A stretch of 64,000 nucleotides of DNA from Pelomonas sp. Root405. Its GTDB lineage: Bacteria > Pseudomonadota > Gammaproteobacteria > Burkholderiales > Burkholderiaceae_C. A program made the position numbers and the translations under genes. Below, one piece after another: positions 44,324-51,984 of this stretch (positions are counted from its first letter, which is position 1; each line of letters opens with the position of its first letter). A model generated the notes under the pieces. The model had not been told where the DNA came from and did not search any database. It worked only from the letters and a program-made list of their open reading frames with translations. The stretch is from positions 110,931-174,930 of the forward strand of contig NZ_LMDU01000016.1 in the NCBI RefSeq assembly GCF_001425165.1, given 5' to 3'.

Positions 44324-45046
44324 ATGAACACGACGCCCAGCGGCCTGCAATTCGAAGACACCGTCGAAGGCGACGGCAAGCAGGCCCAGGCCGGCCAGGA
44401 CGTCACCGTCCACTACACGGGCTGGCTCTGGGTCGATGGCGCCAAGACAACCAAGTTCGACTCCAGCAAGGACCGCAGTGAGCCCTTTGAGTTTGAGCTG
44501 GGCGCTGGCATGGTCATCCGCGGCTGGGACGAAGGCGTGCAGGGCATGAGGATCGGCGGCAAGCGCACGCTGCTCATTCCGGCCGAGCTGGGCTATGGCG
44601 CGCGCGGCGCCGGCGGCGTCATCCCGCCGAACGCGACGCTTTGCTTCGAGGTTGAGCTGCTCGGCCTGGCCGGCGGCCCCGAGAACGTCGAGCTGAATCT
44701 GCACACGGCCTCCAGCGGGCTGCAGTACGAGGACCGTGTCGTCGGCGAAGGCGCCGAGGCCACCAAGGGGCAGCGCGTATCGGTGCACTACACCGGCTGG
44801 CTCTACAAGGACGGCATGCGCGGCAAGAAGTTCGACTCCAGCAAGGACCGCGGCCAGCCCTTCAAGTTCCGCCTCGGCGGCGGCGAGGTGATCCAGGGCT
44901 GGGACGAGGGCGTGCAGGGCATGAAGGTCGGCGGCACGCGCATGCTGGTGCTGCCGCCCGAGCTGGGCTATGGTGCCCACGGCGCGGGCGGTGTCATTCC
45001 GCCGAACGCGACACTGCTTTTTGAAGTCGATTTGCTGGCCGTCTGA
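44324..45046 (+). CDS. Tandem-domain FKBP peptidyl-prolyl isomerase
   Basis: 240 residues. Seen: two FKBP domains in tandem (about 1-117 and 124-240), each with the VHYTGWL core, KFDSSKDR loop, IRGWDEGVQGM/IQGWDEGVQGM and the GAGGVIPPNATL segment; the copies are close relatives and keep the catalytic Tyr, Phe, Trp and Ile/Val set. No signal peptide. Known: cytoplasmic FKBPs speed proline isomerisation; single-domain forms of about 118 residues are typical. Inferred: a recent gene-internal duplication. Confidence 0.95.
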   Translation: MNTTPSGLQFEDTVEGDGKQAQAGQDVTVHYTGWLWVDGAKTTKFDSSKDRSEPFEFELGAGMVIRGWDEGVQGMRIGGKRTLLIPAELGYGARGAGGVIPPNATLCFEVELLGLAGGPENVELNLHTASSGLQYEDRVVGEGAEATKGQRVSVHYTGWLYKDGMRGKKFDSSKDRGQPFKFRLGGGEVIQGWDEGVQGMKVGGTRMLVLPPELGYGAHGAGGVIPPNATLLFEVDLLAV

Positions 45047-45146: not shown

Positions 45147-45563
45147 ATGTCGATTGACCAACGCCGCTTCCCCCGCGTGGAGTTCTTCCTTGTGCCCGAC
45201 CAGCACGAACAACTGCCGGTCTGGGTCATCAAGCCCGAAGGCCTGGCCGCCGAGCGCGGCGGCGTGGTCGTCAACCTCAGCGAGGCCGGCCTGCAGATCC
45301 TGGCGGCGGCCGAGCCGCCGCTGGACGCACAGCACTACGAGCTGCGGCTGCTGCTCGGCGAGGACGAAGGCGTGCCCCTGTTCACCGCCGACGTGCGCCG
45401 CGCCTGGTCGCGGCCGCTGAGCCGCATCGTGCAGCTCGGCGGCTTCGAGTTCGAGACGCCCAACTCCGAAGCTGAGGAGTTCCTGCTCGCACAGACGGCG
45501 CAGATCACCGCGCGCAAGTGGGTCCGTTGCGTGCTGGTGGAGCGGATGACGGCGCTGGCCTGA
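45147..45563 (+). CDS. PilZ-domain protein
   Basis: 138 residues. Seen: an RxxxR motif (RRFPR, residues 6-10) and the partner NxSxxG (NLSEAG, about 43-48), the two conserved c-di-GMP-binding elements of PilZ. The C-terminus (about 110-138) is helical and may act as an output. Known: PilZ proteins change motility, adhesion or polysaccharide production when they bind c-di-GMP. It may respond to the diguanylate cyclase of this genome (1968), but that is inference. Single gene. Confidence 0.7.
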   Translation: MSIDQRRFPRVEFFLVPDQHEQLPVWVIKPEGLAAERGGVVVNLSEAGLQILAAAEPPLDAQHYELRLLLGEDEGVPLFTADVRRAWSRPLSRIVQLGGFEFETPNSEAEEFLLAQTAQITARKWVRCVLVERMTALA

Positions 45564-45667: not shown

Positions 45668-46459
45668 TCAGTCGATCGCCGGATAGTCGCCGAGCCCATC
45701 CGGCCACGGCGTCAGGATCTCGAAACCGTCGGCGGTCACGGTCACCATGTGCTCCCACTGGGCCGACAGCGATTTGTCGCGGGTCACCACCGTCCAGCCG
45801 TCGTTCAGCTCGCGGATGCCAGGCTTGCCGGCGTTGATCATCGGCTCGATCGTGAAGATCATGCCCTCCTGCAACTTCAGTCCCTCGCCCGGGCGGCCGA
45901 AATGGTTGACATGCGGCTCGTCGTGATAGACGTCGCCGATCCCGTGGCCGCCGTACTCCCGCACGACGCTGAAGCCGGCCGCGTGCGCGACCTGCTGGAT
46001 GGCAAAGCCCACATCCCCTAACGTCGCACCCGGACGCACCTGGCGGATGCCGGCGCGCAGTGCCTCGTAGGTCGTGTTGACGAGCCGGCGTGCCAGCACG
46101 TTGGTCTCTCCGACGATGAACATGCGGCTGCTGTCGCCGAACCAGCCGTCCTTGGTCAACGTCACATCGACATTGACGATGTCGCCCTTCTTCAGCCGTT
46201 TGTCCTTTGATGGGATGCCGTGGCAGACGACGTGGTTGGGCGAGATGCAGGCCGTTTTCGGGTAGCCGTGATAGCCGACGTTGGACGGGATGCACTTCAG
46301 CGTGTTGACGATGTACTCGCGGCAGATGTCGTCCAGCTCCTCGGTCGTCACGCCGGGTACGACGTGCGGCTTGAGCATGGCCAGCACCTCGGCGATCAGG
46401 TGCCCGGCCTCGCGGGCCTTGGCGACCTCCTCGGGGCTGCGCAGCTTGAGGCTCTTCAT
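45668..46459 (-). CDS. map: Type I methionine aminopeptidase
   Basis: 263 residues; ATG overlaps the stop of the ParD-like gene (ATGA). Seen: pita-bread fold with all five metal ligands: Asp in VNVDVTLT, Asp in FGDSSRMF, His in YGGHGIG, Glu in FTIEPMI and Glu in QWEHMV. Known: removes the initiator Met from new proteins; a cytoplasmic, usually essential enzyme. A housekeeping copy beside rpsB is normal in Burkholderiales, so this could be a second copy. Its coupling to a small antitoxin-like gene is the notable point. Confidence 0.93.
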   Translation of the reverse strand: MKSLKLRSPEEVAKAREAGHLIAEVLAMLKPHVVPGVTTEELDDICREYIVNTLKCIPSNVGYHGYPKTACISPNHVVCHGIPSKDKRLKKGDIVNVDVTLTKDGWFGDSSRMFIVGETNVLARRLVNTTYEALRAGIRQVRPGATLGDVGFAIQQVAHAAGFSVVREYGGHGIGDVYHDEPHVNHFGRPGEGLKLQEGMIFTIEPMINAGKPGIRELNDGWTVVTRDKSLSAQWEHMVTVTADGFEILTPWPDGLGDYPAID

Positions 46460-46707
46460 GCCCGCACCGCCTTGGCCTTCGCAGGCTGCTGCGCCCAGCC
46501 CGCCAGGCGCGCCAGGTCCAGCCCGCCCTCCTGCTCGGCGCGGATCAGCAACTGGCAGATCTCGCTGTGGCTCAGCTGCGGGTGCAGTTCGGCCAGCATG
46601 CCGATGCGCATCCAATGCTCGGCCTGGGCGTTGATGGAGCGCGACAAGGCCTGGCTCGCAACGCGAAGGCTCTCATGCATCGGATCGGAGATTTTGACGA
46701 TTCCCAT
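46456..46707 (-). CDS. ParD-like ribbon-helix-helix protein
   Basis: 83 residues from the ATG at 46707. Seen: an RHH-type N-terminus (about 1-45; VKISDPMHESLRVASQALSRSI) and a helical C-terminus (about 50-80). Known: the ParD-like family is named from RHH antitoxins of type II toxin-antitoxin systems. It is translationally coupled to map (4-base overlap), and no toxin gene is visible. A 28-bp palindrome lies 9 bases upstream, typical for RHH autorepressors. Inferred: a regulator of map expression or an antitoxin-like partner of MetAP. Confidence 0.75.
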   Translation of the reverse strand: MGIVKISDPMHESLRVASQALSRSINAQAEHWMRIGMLAELHPQLSHSEICQLLIRAEQEGGLDLARLAGWAQQPAKAKAVRA

Positions 46708-46716
46708 GCCGTGACT

Positions 46717-46744
46717 ATATACGATTCGTATACGAAACGTATAT
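46717..46744 (-). promoter_or_regulatory. 28-bp palindrome, ParD-like operator
   Basis: Left half ATATACGATTCGTA, right half TACGAAACGTATAT, matching at 13 of 14 positions around a perfect 12-base core (TTCGTATACGAA). It lies 9 bases before the ParD-like ATG and its outer edge touches the thioesterase stop codon. AT-rich, with TATA steps that could hold a -10 element. Fits RHH operator architecture (two short dyad sites). Confidence 0.8.
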
Positions 46745-47185
46745 TCAGATCTTGGCAACCAGTGCACCTTCGTAGACGGTCAGGAACTCCGCCGGCATGC
46801 GCTTCGGCTTGCCGCTGCTGATTTCGATGCAGATCAGCGCCCAGCGCCCGCGCATCAGCGTCACGCCATCGCCCGCACGGCGCAGCTGGAAGCGCCGCTC
46901 CATCGTCAGCTTGCCATCGCTGGCCGTCAGCCAAGTGCCGAGCACCAGCGCCTCGCCCTCGAAGGACGGCAGCAGGTAGTCGTAGTGCCCCTCGCGGATG
47001 GCCATGGCGCGGTCCAGGCGACGGTAGTCGTCGAGCGACAAACCCAGGGCCTCGGAGTGCGCCCAGCCGGCTTGTTCGCACCACTGCACGTAGACGGCGT
47101 TGTTGGTGTGGGCCAGCCCGTCGATGTGCTCGGCCGCCGGTGTCAGCGCCAGCGTGAACGGCGACGGGTGGTCCCAGTCAGTCAT
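46745..47185 (-). CDS. 4HBT-type acyl-CoA thioesterase
   Basis: 146 residues. Seen: hotdog fold of the YbgC/4-hydroxybenzoyl-CoA thioesterase group: HIDGLAHTNNAVYVQWCEQAGW with a conserved His and Asn, and the EISSGKPKRMP ending. The usual catalytic Asp of YbgC-like proteins (HVNN-x-x-Y-D context) is not obvious. Known: hydrolyse acyl-CoA esters. The ATG lies inside the last codons of the MksB gene (8-base overlap), so it is part of the same transcript. Confidence 0.85.
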   Translation of the reverse strand: MTDWDHPSPFTLALTPAAEHIDGLAHTNNAVYVQWCEQAGWAHSEALGLSLDDYRRLDRAMAIREGHYDYLLPSFEGEALVLGTWLTASDGKLTMERRFQLRRAGDGVTLMRGRWALICIEISSGKPKRMPAEFLTVYEGALVAKI

Positions 47186-49994
47186 ACACGGAGACTTCGG
47201 GCCGCCGTGCCAGCACGGCGATGGGCGGCGCCCAGCGTTCGCCGCGCGGCTTCTTGCTGGTGACCAGTGTGATCTCGCTGGGCTCGAAGACTTCGACGTT
47301 GTGCGTGATCGGCGTCGTCAGCAGGTACTGCGCGCGGGTGCTGCGCAGGAAGTGGCCGACGAGCTGGATGTTGCGCACATCCAGGTGGGCGAAGGGCTCG
47401 TCGATGAAGACGAAGCCGCCCGGCGTCTCGTCATCCTTCATCAGGCCGACGAGCAGGATCAGGCTCTTCAGCACCTGCTGGCCGCCCGAGGCCTCGCCGT
47501 CGTTCAAGCCCACCTCGCCCTTGCCGTCGAAGTTGAACTTCACGTGCAGGCCCGCCTGCGCGAGCACGGTGTCGTCGTTGTCCAGGTGCGGCAGCACGGC
47601 CTCGGCCGTCGTGCCGGCCAGCTCGCCCAGCTCGGCGACATTCTTCTTGTAGCGGCGCACGGTGGCGCGCATCACGTCGATGTAGCGCTCGCGGGCGTTG
47701 AAGGCGGCGATGCGGGCCAACTCGTTGCTGGCACGGCGGTCGCTGAGCTGGGTGTCCTGCTCGTGCACCTGGGCGGCCATGCGGGCATGGCGGTCCACCA
47801 CGCTGGCATCGACTTCCCAGTGGCCCCCTTGCAGTTCCTGGTCCACATGGTGGGCGCGGATCTCGGCCTGGCGGGCATTCTCGAATTCGTCGCGCAGCGC
47901 GGCCAGCGCGATCGAAGTGACCCAGGACTTGGGGAACTGGGCTTTCTGCTTGCGCGATTCCTGCGACGCCTTGCGCAGCGCGTCGCGCCTGGCCTCGTGC
48001 TCGCGCAGGCGGCCGGCCGCGGAACCCTCGCCGTCCTTCAGCGCGATCTGCGCACCTTCGTAGGCCTGCTCGCTGCGCGTGGACTCGCGCACCACACGGT
48101 CGTGCTCGCTGTCCAGCGCGCTCATGCGCGAGGCGGCTTCGGCGCGCGCCTGGCGCAGCACGGGCAGGCGCGCGCGGGCTTCGGCGAACTCGTCCGAGCG
48201 CTCACTCAATTCCTGTGCCGCCTTGTGGCCCACGGCCGCGCGCTGCACATCCTTGAACTGGCGTTCGACTTCCGCCTGCGCCTTGGCGATGCGGCTCAGC
48301 TCACCGTCCCAGCGGGCCAGCTCAGCTTCCAACGCGCCGCGACGTGAATCGATCGCCGAAGCGCCGAACTGGTGGTCGCGCGGCTCGACGAACACGCTGC
48401 GGCCGCCGCGGCCATCGCGGTAGTAGGCGTCGGTCGTGATCCATTCACCGCCGACCTGGGCGCCCTCTTCCGTCGACGTGACGCAGCGGATGCCGCTCAA
48501 CTGGCGCGCCAGCCAGGATGGCAGCGGCGCGCTGACATTCAGCGCGGCCAGCAGCGTGCCAGCCGGCGCCTGCGTGACGGGCGAGGTGTCCGCCACGACG
48601 TAGTGGCGATAGCGTTGCTTCGCCGCGATGTCGAAAGCGCGGCCCTCGTCGCTGCGGTGCTTCAGCACGACCACCCAGCGCGACGGGCGCAATAAACCTT
48701 CGGCGGCAGCGCGCCAGGTCTCGTCGGCGATGTCGATGCTGTCGGCGACCAGATAGTGGGCGATGCCGGCGTCGTCCAGCGCGCGCTTCATCGGCGTGAC
48801 TTCGGGCGGCGGCGGGGGCAGGCGCCTGCCGCTCAGCTCGCCGAGCGCGGTCTGCGCACGCGCGGCTTTGTCGCTGGCGCGTGTGTAGTCGGCGCGCAGG
48901 CGCTCGCGCTCGCTGGCCAGCCCCTGCATCTTGGCCGTCAGCGCGGCGGCATCGGCCTCCACATCGGCCAGCGCCTTCAGCTCGTCCTCGCGCTTGACCA
49001 GCGCCTCGGCAGGCCGTTCGGCCTCGCGCGCCGCGTCGAACGCAGCACGCGCCTCACGACGCTCGCCGTCCAGCGCCTTCAGCCGCTCCTTCGCCGCTTC
49101 CTGCGCCGTGAACAGGCTGTGCAGCGCCGCGCGCTTGTCGCTCAGCGCCTTCACGTCACCCGACGCGAACAGCCGCTGGCGGTGCAGCTCGCGCGCGTCG
49201 CGGGCGATGCGCTCGCGCGCCTCGCTCCAGCGCAGCACGGGCAGCACCTCGGTGGCCAGGCGCTCGCGCTCCTGCACCTTGAGCTGGTACTGGCGGTGGC
49301 TGTTGACGCGATTGGCCAGGTCGCTGAGCTGGGCCTGCGTGTGAGCCAGTTCGGCGCTGGCCTGCTCCACCTCCTTGCCCAGGTGCTGCTGGTGGCTGCG
49401 CGCCTGCTCGTAGCGGTCCAGCACCTCCTGGTCGCCGAACACCTCGAAGACGAGGCGCAGCAGCTCCTTGGGCGACAGCTCGCAGAGCCGGTCGGTCTGC
49501 CCCTGCTCCAGTGCCAGCACGCGGCCGATGGCACGCGTCAGCCCAGCGGCTTCGAGCCGCTTCTTCCACGCCTCGATGCCCAGCCAGTCGCGGTCGCCCT
49601 TCTCCGCCAGCTGCTCGATCTCGTGCACGCCGTCGAGGATGACGTAGCGGCGCGCCCAGTCGCCGCCATGGCGCTCGATGCGGCAGGCCAGCGTTACCTG
49701 GTCGGCATACAGCAGCGACGACGCGAACGGCCGGCTGCTGTTCTGGCGCGAGCGCGGGCGGTTGTCCACCAGTGCGCGCAGCCAGGCCGTCTCGGCGTTG
49801 GCGTGACGGGCGTAGGTCTTGTACGTGCGGCCGCCCGAGCACTCCAGGCCCAGCAGCGTGCGCATCGCGTCCAGCAGCGTGGTTTTGCCCGAGCCATTGG
49901 GGCCGGCGATGGTGATGATGGCGCCGTCCAGCGGCAGCGTGACGCGCTGGCAGTAGTCCCAGTGCAGCAGTTCGAGCGATTGCAGGTGGAACAT
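47178..49994 (-). CDS. MukB/MksB-like SMC ATPase
   Basis: 938 residues from the ATG at 49994; frame continues upstream but that part overlaps mksE. Seen: Walker A GPNGSGKT (31-38); long coiled coils (about 180-420 and 560-780) around a hinge-like globular region (about 430-540); C-terminal signature SGGQQ (about 836) and Walker B VFIDEP (Asp865, Glu866). Known: MukB/MksB/JetC proteins form SMC complexes with a kleisin and a winged-helix subunit that fold or clear DNA. About 940 residues fits MksB better than MukB (about 1490). Inferred: the motor of an Mks condensin or a Wadjet-like complex. Confidence 0.87.
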   Translation of the reverse strand: MFHLQSLELLHWDYCQRVTLPLDGAIITIAGPNGSGKTTLLDAMRTLLGLECSGGRTYKTYARHANAETAWLRALVDNRPRSRQNSSRPFASSLLYADQVTLACRIERHGGDWARRYVILDGVHEIEQLAEKGDRDWLGIEAWKKRLEAAGLTRAIGRVLALEQGQTDRLCELSPKELLRLVFEVFGDQEVLDRYEQARSHQQHLGKEVEQASAELAHTQAQLSDLANRVNSHRQYQLKVQERERLATEVLPVLRWSEARERIARDARELHRQRLFASGDVKALSDKRAALHSLFTAQEAAKERLKALDGERREARAAFDAAREAERPAEALVKREDELKALADVEADAAALTAKMQGLASERERLRADYTRASDKAARAQTALGELSGRRLPPPPPEVTPMKRALDDAGIAHYLVADSIDIADETWRAAAEGLLRPSRWVVVLKHRSDEGRAFDIAAKQRYRHYVVADTSPVTQAPAGTLLAALNVSAPLPSWLARQLSGIRCVTSTEEGAQVGGEWITTDAYYRDGRGGRSVFVEPRDHQFGASAIDSRRGALEAELARWDGELSRIAKAQAEVERQFKDVQRAAVGHKAAQELSERSDEFAEARARLPVLRQARAEAASRMSALDSEHDRVVRESTRSEQAYEGAQIALKDGEGSAAGRLREHEARRDALRKASQESRKQKAQFPKSWVTSIALAALRDEFENARQAEIRAHHVDQELQGGHWEVDASVVDRHARMAAQVHEQDTQLSDRRASNELARIAAFNARERYIDVMRATVRRYKKNVAELGELAGTTAEAVLPHLDNDDTVLAQAGLHVKFNFDGKGEVGLNDGEASGGQQVLKSLILLVGLMKDDETPGGFVFIDEPFAHLDVRNIQLVGHFLRSTRAQYLLTTPITHNVEVFEPSEITLVTSKKPRGERWAPPIAVLARRPEVSVYD

Positions 49995-49996
49995 GG

Positions 49997-50677
49997 TCAG
50001 TCGTCGATATCTTGTTGTTCTTCTTGCGGGCGCGGCAGCGGGTGGCCGGCGCGGGCCAACACGTCGCCCAAAGCGCCGTCGAGGATGCGCGGCGCCAGCA
50101 GGTCGTAGTCGATCAGCAGGTCCAAGAGCGGCCCCTCGGCAATGTCCTCGCCGCGGCGCGTGACGAAGCCGTGGCGCTCCAGCAGCTTCAGGTTGGTGTC
50201 CAGCCGCAGCTTCTTGCCGAGCTGGTCGCCGAAGTCGGCCAGCAGGCTGCGGTAGCTGATCAGCGGCGCGACGCTGGCGGCCTGCGGCATGGGCTTGTCG
50301 GTGGCGAAGAACTCGCCCTGGCCGGCATGGATGGCGTCGCTGCGCGCGACCTGCCGTTGCCGCTTGGGCAGCACGATCAGGCTCCACAGCACCACCAGCA
50401 ACGCCACGCCGTCGCGCGGCAGGTCGAGGTTGTTGTTGGCGGCCAGGCCTGCTTCGCCGAACACGGCGCTCTCGGCCGGGCGCAGCAGCGCGACCGAGAT
50501 GTGGTCGGCATGCACGTTGTCCACCAGCTGCAGGCCCACACCGGCCAGGCGGGCGCCGAGCTGGTTCCACAGCTCGGTGTCGATCAGCGCGCGCTTCACG
50601 AGGGGATGGCTGCGCGGCAGCCAGCGGCGGGCCAGCAGTTGCGCGGCGAGTTGCTGGGCGTCGTCGAGTGGGCTCAT
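49997..50677 (-). CDS. MukE/MksE-like subunit
   Basis: 226 residues; ATGA overlap with the kleisin gene and a 2-base gap to the SMC gene. Seen: winged-helix content, with the C-terminal half (about 145-200; SYRSLLADFGDQLGKKLRLDT, LLERHGFVTRRGEDIAEGPL) forming a wing-like motif. Tail acidic with Glu and Gln run. Known: MukE/MksE/JetB dimers bind the kleisin and regulate DNA binding. Assignment rests on order, size and fold character rather than strong sequence identity. Confidence 0.75.
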   Translation of the reverse strand: MSPLDDAQQLAAQLLARRWLPRSHPLVKRALIDTELWNQLGARLAGVGLQLVDNVHADHISVALLRPAESAVFGEAGLAANNNLDLPRDGVALLVVLWSLIVLPKRQRQVARSDAIHAGQGEFFATDKPMPQAASVAPLISYRSLLADFGDQLGKKLRLDTNLKLLERHGFVTRRGEDIAEGPLLDLLIDYDLLAPRILDGALGDVLARAGHPLPRPQEEQQDIDD

Positions 50678-51984
50678 GTGGCAGGAGATTCAGGAGTGAG
50701 GACGCCGCGGCTCATCCATTTGACGAACTCGTCGTCCACGGGGCCTTGGTCGGCGGACCAGCGGACCGACCAAGGCTGGCGGGCCATGTCGCCGGTGGCG
50801 CCCTTCAGGTGACGCGCCTGCGCGTCGCCCAACAGCGGCAGCAGCTGGGCGCGGTAGGCGGAGCGGGCGTAGCTGTCGCCGAGGATGGCGGGCGCCAGGT
50901 CGCGCTCGACCGGCTCGGCCGCCCAGGCGCTCAAGAGGGTTTGCATCTGATCCATGTCCGGCGGCAGCTGCATGACGGCCAGCTCGCCGGTCGGTGCGGC
51001 CTGGCCTTGCGGCAATGCGGCAGCCTCGGCCGGCTTGGGGCGGTCGCGCTCGAACTCGGCCTCGGCCGTGTCGACGAGGTCGCGCTGCGCCACCAGCACC
51101 GGATGCACCGGCCGCTCCCAGGCGCCGTTGATGAGCGCTGCCAGGTCGCCCTGGCTCTGCAGCCAGCGGCGCACGTCCGTCGTCGTGATGCCGGTGGAGC
51201 CCAGCGTCACGCGCTGGCGGTCGGCCTGCTGCAACGCGCGGTTGAACTGGCTGGCCATCGCCAGCAGCCGCGCCTGCGCCAGGCCCAGCTCGCGCGCCAG
51301 ACGCTCCAGCCGCGCGTCGCCGGCCGCTTCGGCTTGGGCAATGATGGCGCCCAACGCCTCGCCGGCACGGTCCACCAGCGTCAGCGCCTTCTCGAACCGG
51401 GTGCGCGCGCGGCGCAGCGCGAACTCGCTGCCACTGGCGATGGCGTCGGCGAACTCGTCGTAGAGCCGTGACAGCTGGGCCAGCAAGTGCTGCAGCTGCG
51501 CCGGCTGCAAGGTGCCCAGCTGATGGGCGCCGGCCACACCGGCCAGCAGCGAGGCCAGGTCACCGTCGGGCGACTGCTCCTGCGTCAGCGGCTGCAGCAG
51601 GCCGACGACCTGCTGGGCCAGTGGCGTGACGGCATAGGTCTGCGCGGTGGCGTCCCAGGCCAGCAGGTCGGCCTCGCGGAAGCGTTTCAGTACACCGTCC
51701 AGCGCCTCGTCACGCAGCACATGGAAGGCCTGGTTCAGCGCCTCGCGCGTCAGGCGCGATTCGCGCAGCGCCATCAGCTCGAAGAACACCCACAGCCGCA
51801 ACCGCGTCAGCGCCGCCGAGCCCTGGAACAGCGCGCGCAAGGCGGCCTGCAGCGCGTCCTGGTGCTCCAGCTGCCACCACAGCAGCGCCTCGGCCGGCGC
51901 GCTGCCGTCGCGAAAGTAGTCCTCCACGCGCAGGGCGTCGTCGCTCTCGGGCAGGGAGGTGGGCGGCAGAGTCGGTTGGGACAT
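50674..51984 (-). CDS. MukF/MksF-like kleisin
   Basis: 436 residues. Seen: N-terminal winged helix (about 15-125; LWVFFELMALRESRLTREALNQAF), helical middle (about 150-330), and a C-terminal region rich in Trp and Asp that could be the SMC-binding end. Known: kleisins bridge the SMC heads. First gene of a minus-strand run, followed by mksE, mksB, thioesterase, ParD-like and map. Divergent from the DOPA dioxygenase gene over 91 bases. Confidence 0.77.
   Translation of the reverse strand: MSQPTLPPTSLPESDDALRVEDYFRDGSAPAEALLWWQLEHQDALQAALRALFQGSAALTRLRLWVFFELMALRESRLTREALNQAFHVLRDEALDGVLKRFREADLLAWDATAQTYAVTPLAQQVVGLLQPLTQEQSPDGDLASLLAGVAGAHQLGTLQPAQLQHLLAQLSRLYDEFADAIASGSEFALRRARTRFEKALTLVDRAGEALGAIIAQAEAAGDARLERLARELGLAQARLLAMASQFNRALQQADRQRVTLGSTGITTTDVRRWLQSQGDLAALINGAWERPVHPVLVAQRDLVDTAEAEFERDRPKPAEAAALPQGQAAPTGELAVMQLPPDMDQMQTLLSAWAAEPVERDLAPAILGDSYARSAYRAQLLPLLGDAQARHLKGATGDMARQPWSVRWSADQGPVDDEFVKWMSRGVLTPESPAT

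Follow-up and report, generated by a model that had tools for sequence, protein, structure and literature searches.

A ParD-like protein as probable local autorepressor of a supplementary methionine aminopeptidase gene in Pseudomonadota

Background

Ribbon-helix-helix repressors such as MetJ, Arc and CopG occupy series of short repeated boxes on DNA, one dimer adjoining the next. Of the two members of a toxin-antitoxin pair, it is the toxin that a cell cannot harbour by itself. Two functional methionine aminopeptidases (MetAPs) reportedly occur in Acinetobacter baumannii, as Yuan et al. are said to have described in 2011; the pair-bearing genomes considered here likewise hold two or more presumably active MetAPs.

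Bacillus subtilis has, with map and yflG, a second functional and weakly expressed MetAP, for which YvoA is a possible weak repressor (PMC1266368). The locus described below resembles this arrangement in that a second MetAP appears to stand under a repressor. The abstract of that paper names YvoA and no ParD-like gene, whereas here a ParD-like gene is predicted to be co-transcribed with map from its own operator. On the side of the small protein, Rv0367c of the Rv0366c-Rv0367c pair is described as a ParD_like antitoxin of family PF11903 (PMC6362051). The PF11903 antitoxins that accompany ParE-like (PF15781) or zeta toxins share with the present protein the Pfam family and the position of a small gene that opens a two-gene operon. 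They differ from it in that the partner here is a MetAP and not a toxin, that the glycine at position 2 is here invariant, and that the proteins of the present subfamily score at least 83 bits against their profile as opposed to at most 43 bits for the toxin-linked ones. No paper on the ParD-like/map pair was found among open PMC papers, a set outside which subscription journals mostly lie; in PMC13129497, the ParD-like protein is filed under another Pfam number.

The gene pair and its surroundings

The window, that is the whole 64-kb stretch of DNA analysed, carries a ParD-like gene followed on the same strand by map (Table 1). The ParD-like protein scores 105.9 bits against PF11903 (ParD_like; curated Pfam cut-off 23) and 138 bits against the profile of its subfamily. 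The map product scores 298.5 bits against the NCBIfam equivalog TIGR00500 (cut-off 171.35). The sequence-only reading of this DNA had described an ATGA overlap between the two genes and the absence of an adjacent toxin gene; the overlap lies where it had been placed, and the neighbour is indeed a TIGR00500 MetAP. Among 149 loci with the pair the junction is ATGA in 70 and TAATG or TGATG in 43. The ATGA overlap suggests that the two genes are translationally coupled, and the TAATG/TGATG junctions imply as much. The ParD-like protein is predicted from its Pfam membership to be a ribbon-helix-helix repressor; a PDB search returned only designed proteins (E = 0.012 and 0.02), and a profile search against the PDB gave no match.

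Table 1. Features of the ParD-like/map locus (positions within the 64-kb window)
Feature	Position	Strand	Basis
map, 263 aa, second type I methionine aminopeptidase gene of the genome	45668-46459	-	TIGR00500
ATGA overlap of ParD-like gene and map	46456-46459	-	4 shared bases
ParD-like gene, 83 aa	46456-46707	-	ATG 46707-46705; PF11903, MetAP-linked subfamily
TATAGT, possible -10 box, inside and just after the operator	46714-46719	-	sequence and conservation in the genus
Putative operator, tandem 11-bp repeats	46716-46750	-	35-column matrix from 145 relatives
28-bp palindrome, core of the putative operator	46717-46744		13/14 pairs
Thioesterase-like gene, upstream neighbour outside the cassette	46745-47185	-	4HBT_2, 37.5 bits

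Downstream of map, a PilZ-domain protein is encoded on the opposite strand (45147-45563, +; 22.8 bits, cut-off 22.5), and an FKBP-type isomerase with two domains is found at 44324-45046. Upstream of the thioesterase gene, positions 47178-51984 (-) encode an SMC-like protein with weak JetC/MukB-like matches together with ORFs of 226 and 436 aa, in what we take to be the order of an MksBEF/Wadjet-like condensin. No nuclease gene was seen between these ORFs and the ParD-like/map pair.

Linkage and distribution

A subfamily profile was built from 25 pair-type ParD-like proteins. At all 149 loci scoring at least 83 bits against it, map lies directly downstream on the same strand, as opposed to none of the 42 loci with other PF11903 proteins (at most 43 bits); these loci are interrelated and were selected by similarity of the ParD-like protein. 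The remark in the sequence-only reading that such genes stand beside map in other proteobacteria is thereby borne out, and the pairing is conserved. The neighbours of the low-scoring PF11903 genes include 23 ParE-like and five zeta toxins among 60 proteins tested, out of 108 candidate ORFs. In the subfamily, by contrast with a type II toxin-antitoxin system, the place of an adjacent toxin gene is taken by map at all of these 149 loci. Later loci follow the same layout in 22 of 24 cases, one of them (in genome G901) as an in-frame MetAP fusion. There are two exceptions to the layout: at locus L235 the ParD-like gene is accompanied by no more than a broken remnant of map, and at L294, on a contig filed as viral, the two genes diverge around the operator.

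The pair-type gene is found in at least 25 of 150 genomes of a family sample and at least 48 of 398 of a phylum sample. These are lower bounds: 47 of 64 PF11903 places in the family sample and 70 in the phylum sample were inspected for map, the others scoring at most about 71 bits. The gene is also present in at least 10 of 369 genomes of a class sample and in 17 of 20 of the genus. Named relatives among the best 80 of 571 include Pelomonas/Roseateles, Acidovorax, Variovorax, Pseudomonas, Achromobacter, Collimonas, Methylomonas and Pantoea. PF11903 had no match in 14 control genomes. Presence in E. coli was rejected, the pair of a Klebsiella plasmid having no near match in 20,395 records. On plasmids (162 records with a match), map lies downstream at all six loci examined, and some of the pair-bearing plasmids are conjugative or mobilizable. 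Two plasmid copies (L239 and L242, from Klebsiella and Paraburkholderia) have NTF2-like, alpha/beta-hydrolase, peroxidase-related and LysR genes in their vicinity, which may form an island connected with stress.

Several other affiliations were considered and rejected. The ParD-like protein has no match in 50,697 phage records, which speaks against a phage system; IMG/VR yielded four loci from 28 pattern matches. A defence gene is not indicated, there being no PADLOC match. Nor does a conserved third gene accompany the pair: at 20 class-2 loci no Pfam family occurs in more than two of 129 neighbouring proteins (from 154 ORFs, those in the map or parD frames and overlaps having been left out by hand).

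The operator

The 28-bp palindrome begins directly after the thioesterase stop codon. As the sequence-only reading had it, 13 of its 14 positions pair, and it ends 9 bp (46708-46716) ahead of the ParD-like ATG. No other ungapped palindrome in the window reaches 13/14. Twenty Markov-1 sequences of the same length contained two such palindromes in all, or 0.1 per window, and the palindrome by itself is only mildly unusual. What makes the site non-random is its conservation in relatives, and not its symmetry. The tandem pattern ATACGNNNCGTATACGNNNCGTAT, allowing up to three mismatches, has a single match in the window, and none of 100 dinucleotide shuffles contains it; the pattern was picked after the site was seen.

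Upstream of 145 distinct pairs we identified tandem 11-bp repeats of the form ATAYGNNTCRT (consensus AATATACGATTCATATACGTTTCGTATA), which mostly end 8-9 bp ahead of the start codon. With the 35-column matrix the window operator scores 37.1 bits, the best in the 64 kb; the next match elsewhere scores -5.1. Of the earlier proposal of a dedicated palindromic operator, the dedicated operator stands, being conserved before the pair, while the 28-bp palindrome does not stand as the unit, being one form of the tandem 11-bp repeats. In 142 of 145 cases the upstream region scores higher than any of 725 shuffles, the operator being weak or missing at L064, L096 and L094. Since some of the rows scored here had also served to train the matrix, cross-class and outside tests were added. 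A matrix trained on one class scores 34 of 36 sites of the other class higher than all shuffles; in the reverse direction the figure is 106 of 106. Both tests carry a mild leak in that the training sites were chosen with the full matrix. Outside the training set, 12 of 14 loci score at least 26 bits (L235, with 13.9, and L241, with -5.7, fall below); L264, from a training genome, and the other loci of the genus, close kin of training rows, are not counted among these 14. The same 26 bits are reached by 23 of the 24 later loci, kin of training rows included.

Within the genus the operator is kept while its flanks diverge, with TATATAGT behind the site. A strict operator pattern is found ahead of the pair in all 18 pair-bearing genomes searched. 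These genomes hold three matches away from the pair as compared with five for a reversed control, and a wider regulon was rejected on this count; two genomes without the pair that served as blanks (G023 and G009) gave no match. The operator thus looks private to the ParD-like/map pair. The TATAGT hexamer sits 6 bp ahead of the ParD-like ATG, and as a -10 box it would possibly give a nearly leaderless mRNA. The operator probably overlaps the promoter of the operon; a sigma-70 scan of the window returned no promoter.

A conserved putative operator ahead of the operon is what type II toxin-antitoxin systems possess, and short repeated boxes are what repressors of the MetJ/Arc kind possess. Side-by-side dimers on repeated boxes are likewise proposed for the ParD-like protein, which differs from MetJ, Arc and CopG in the regulated enzyme, in the 11-bp tandem unit and in sequence, with no detectable PDB match.

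The linked methionine aminopeptidase

The linked map (hereafter map2, its product Map2) is an additional copy, a point that the sequence-only reading had missed. The second map of the window genome (G000:C16:77275-78018) is 58% identical to it. In the family sample, all 25 pair-bearing genomes have at least two map genes, whereas among the 119 genomes with map but no pair six do; in the phylum sample, each of the 47 other pair-bearing genomes has at least one further map. An rpsB motif adjoins the unlinked map at nine of 21 loci. Since none of these loci carries a ParD-like gene of the subfamily, it is the linked map that we regard as the accessory copy.

We take D97, D108, H171, E204 and E235 (E. 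coli numbering) to be the metal ligands of type I MetAPs. In the linked maps, the window included and three short sequences (L164, L178 and L195) left out of the residue counts, H79, D97, D108, E204 and E235 are present in 142 of 142 and H171 in 141, the exception being a glutamine in L192; apart from this, linked, orphan and unlinked maps all retain the ligands. Cys70 and Phe177 are presumably residues of the substrate pocket. The former position holds cysteine in all 21 unlinked maps, and cysteine (62), leucine (44) or asparagine (36) in the 142 linked ones. The latter holds tyrosine or methionine in 141 of 142 linked maps (with one gap) and phenylalanine in 19 of 21 unlinked maps. The loss of Cys70 had suggested electrophile or inhibitor stress as an inducer, a candidate that was dropped, as the window map retains its cysteine. 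The linked maps fall into two classes; a joint clade, as a common origin would require, is not rejected by the AU test (p = 0.309, or 0.854 with L224 and L219 included). The dN/dS ratios (0.07-0.17 in 18 comparisons of map, 0.07-0.20 in 15 intact parD-like genes) indicate that both genes are under purifying selection. Map2 appears to be an active supplementary type I MetAP.

map2 without the ParD-like gene

Five genomes (G144, G013, G028, G887 and G896) carry a map of the Map2 clade without a ParD-like gene and without any match to the operator. The maps of the first three belong to the same clade with 72-73% identity. In G887 and G896, which belong to the genus of the window, map is 91-92% identical and lies directly behind the thioesterase gene, the ParD-like gene and operator being gone; gene loss is the simpler reading there, as the ParD-like gene is present in 17 of the 20 genomes of that genus. 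The metal ligands are intact in three of the orphan maps, which were checked by column, and the two others are full intact ORFs. Since G144 and G013 belong to one genus, the five genomes could stem from only two or three events. In G901 (C137; L279 or L280), the ParD-like residues after about position 41 are missing and the predicted ribbon-helix-helix part runs in frame into MetAP, giving a protein of 323 aa. This fusion stands behind an intact operator and was seen once, in a draft genome.

Regulation and alternative explanations

From the comparisons above we consider it probable that the ParD-like protein is a dedicated local autorepressor of a two-gene operon that also encodes a supplementary, non-toxic Map2. 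Autorepression from a dedicated operator, already put forward in the sequence-only reading, is the natural interpretation given an operator conserved ahead of the pairs. ParD-like dimers would bind side by side on the tandem 11-bp repeats, which would cover the promoter and start region of the operon, and the bound dimers would hold down both the ParD-like gene and the coupled map2. When repression is lifted, active supplementary Map2 would be made and, being no toxin, would need no antidote. The exceptional layouts of L235 and L294, the weak or missing operators of L064, L096, L094, L235 and L241, and the negative outcomes of the PDB searches and the sigma-70 scan count against autorepression.

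The same early reading had also proposed MetAP as a toxin-like partner held in check. In such a toxin-antitoxin-like pair free MetAP would be harmful, and the ParD-like protein would bind and silence Map2 as well as repress the operon. The gene order, the ATGA overlap and the presumed autoregulation do resemble a type II system, the PF11903 relatives outside the subfamily do adjoin ParE-like (23) and zeta (5) toxins, and the pair does travel on plasmids, including conjugative or mobilizable ones. Yet an effector that is not tolerated without its antitoxin gene is not what the five orphan-map genomes display: they keep an intact Map2 with neither ParD-like gene nor operator, and on these grounds the idea of MetAP as a toxin requiring an antidote was rejected. 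Free MetAP as such must be tolerated, since each genome tested holds another, unlinked map; and G901 lacks the stretch after the predicted ribbon-helix-helix part, the rest being fused to MetAP. We regard this explanation as very improbable. A milder version, in which the ParD-like protein represses the operon and also binds a non-toxic Map2, with free Map2 tuning repression (compare conditional cooperativity), is possible, if on the unlikely side. Contact between the two proteins is conceivable because the antitoxin-like stretch after the predicted ribbon-helix-helix part is kept, and this retention possibly counts against a pure autorepressor. Residues 41-64, which correspond to the post-ribbon-helix-helix stretch of the toxin-linked relatives, are conserved in class 1, with P43, L45, L54 and G61 invariant in 48 sequences. 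The gene overlap would favour co-translation, and the natural in-frame fusion of G901, next to an intact operator, joins the two partners. However, the C-terminal tail of the ParD-like protein shows little conservation and is short in class 2, and the fusion is a single one from a draft genome.

MetAP removes methionine before glycine. Codon 2 of the ParD-like gene specifies glycine in 145 of 145 subfamily proteins and in 30 later ones, while a Met-Gly start is seen in two of 42 relatives of the toxin-linked type, which mostly have alanine, serine, proline or threonine. The starts of the subfamily are 137 ATG, seven GTG and one TTG, all of them predicted, and 66 of the 145 have an in-frame alternative start upstream. 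The repressor is thus likely to be itself a substrate of MetAP. The invariant Gly2 and the trimming of Met-Gly by MetAP lead to a further reading, which we consider improbable: processed and unprocessed repressor would differ in operator binding, and Map2 would be made if the housekeeping MetAP fails. While MetAP works, trimmed repressor would bind the operator; under metal starvation or inhibition of the housekeeping enzyme, newly made repressor would keep its methionine and bind only weakly. The spare MetAP, with a pocket that often deviates at the Cys70 and Phe177 positions, would then be made until trimming, and hence repression, is restored. Residues 2-6 form the start of the predicted DNA-contacting strand, and the regulated gene encodes the very enzyme that acts on Met-Gly. 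Against this, Gly2 may owe its invariance to DNA contact and nothing else, the residue 2 of the toxin-linked relatives is also mostly small and MetAP-compatible, and the predicted start codons with their upstream alternatives weaken the count. Local autorepression of a supplementary, non-toxic Map2 is the reading that we retain.

Implications

Current annotation calls the ParD-like gene an antitoxin, and surveys of toxin-antitoxin systems may count it as such. If local autorepression is correct, a branch of an antitoxin family would have left its toxins and come to act as a dedicated repressor of an enzyme that works at an essential point in protein maturation. The pair would mark a regulated second MetAP in many Pseudomonadota, and on plasmids too, a point that matters where MetAP is considered as a drug target. 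It also raises the testable question of whether and how a cell measures N-terminal methionine excision; should the sensor reading be true, the ParD-like protein would be a built-in gauge of that process.
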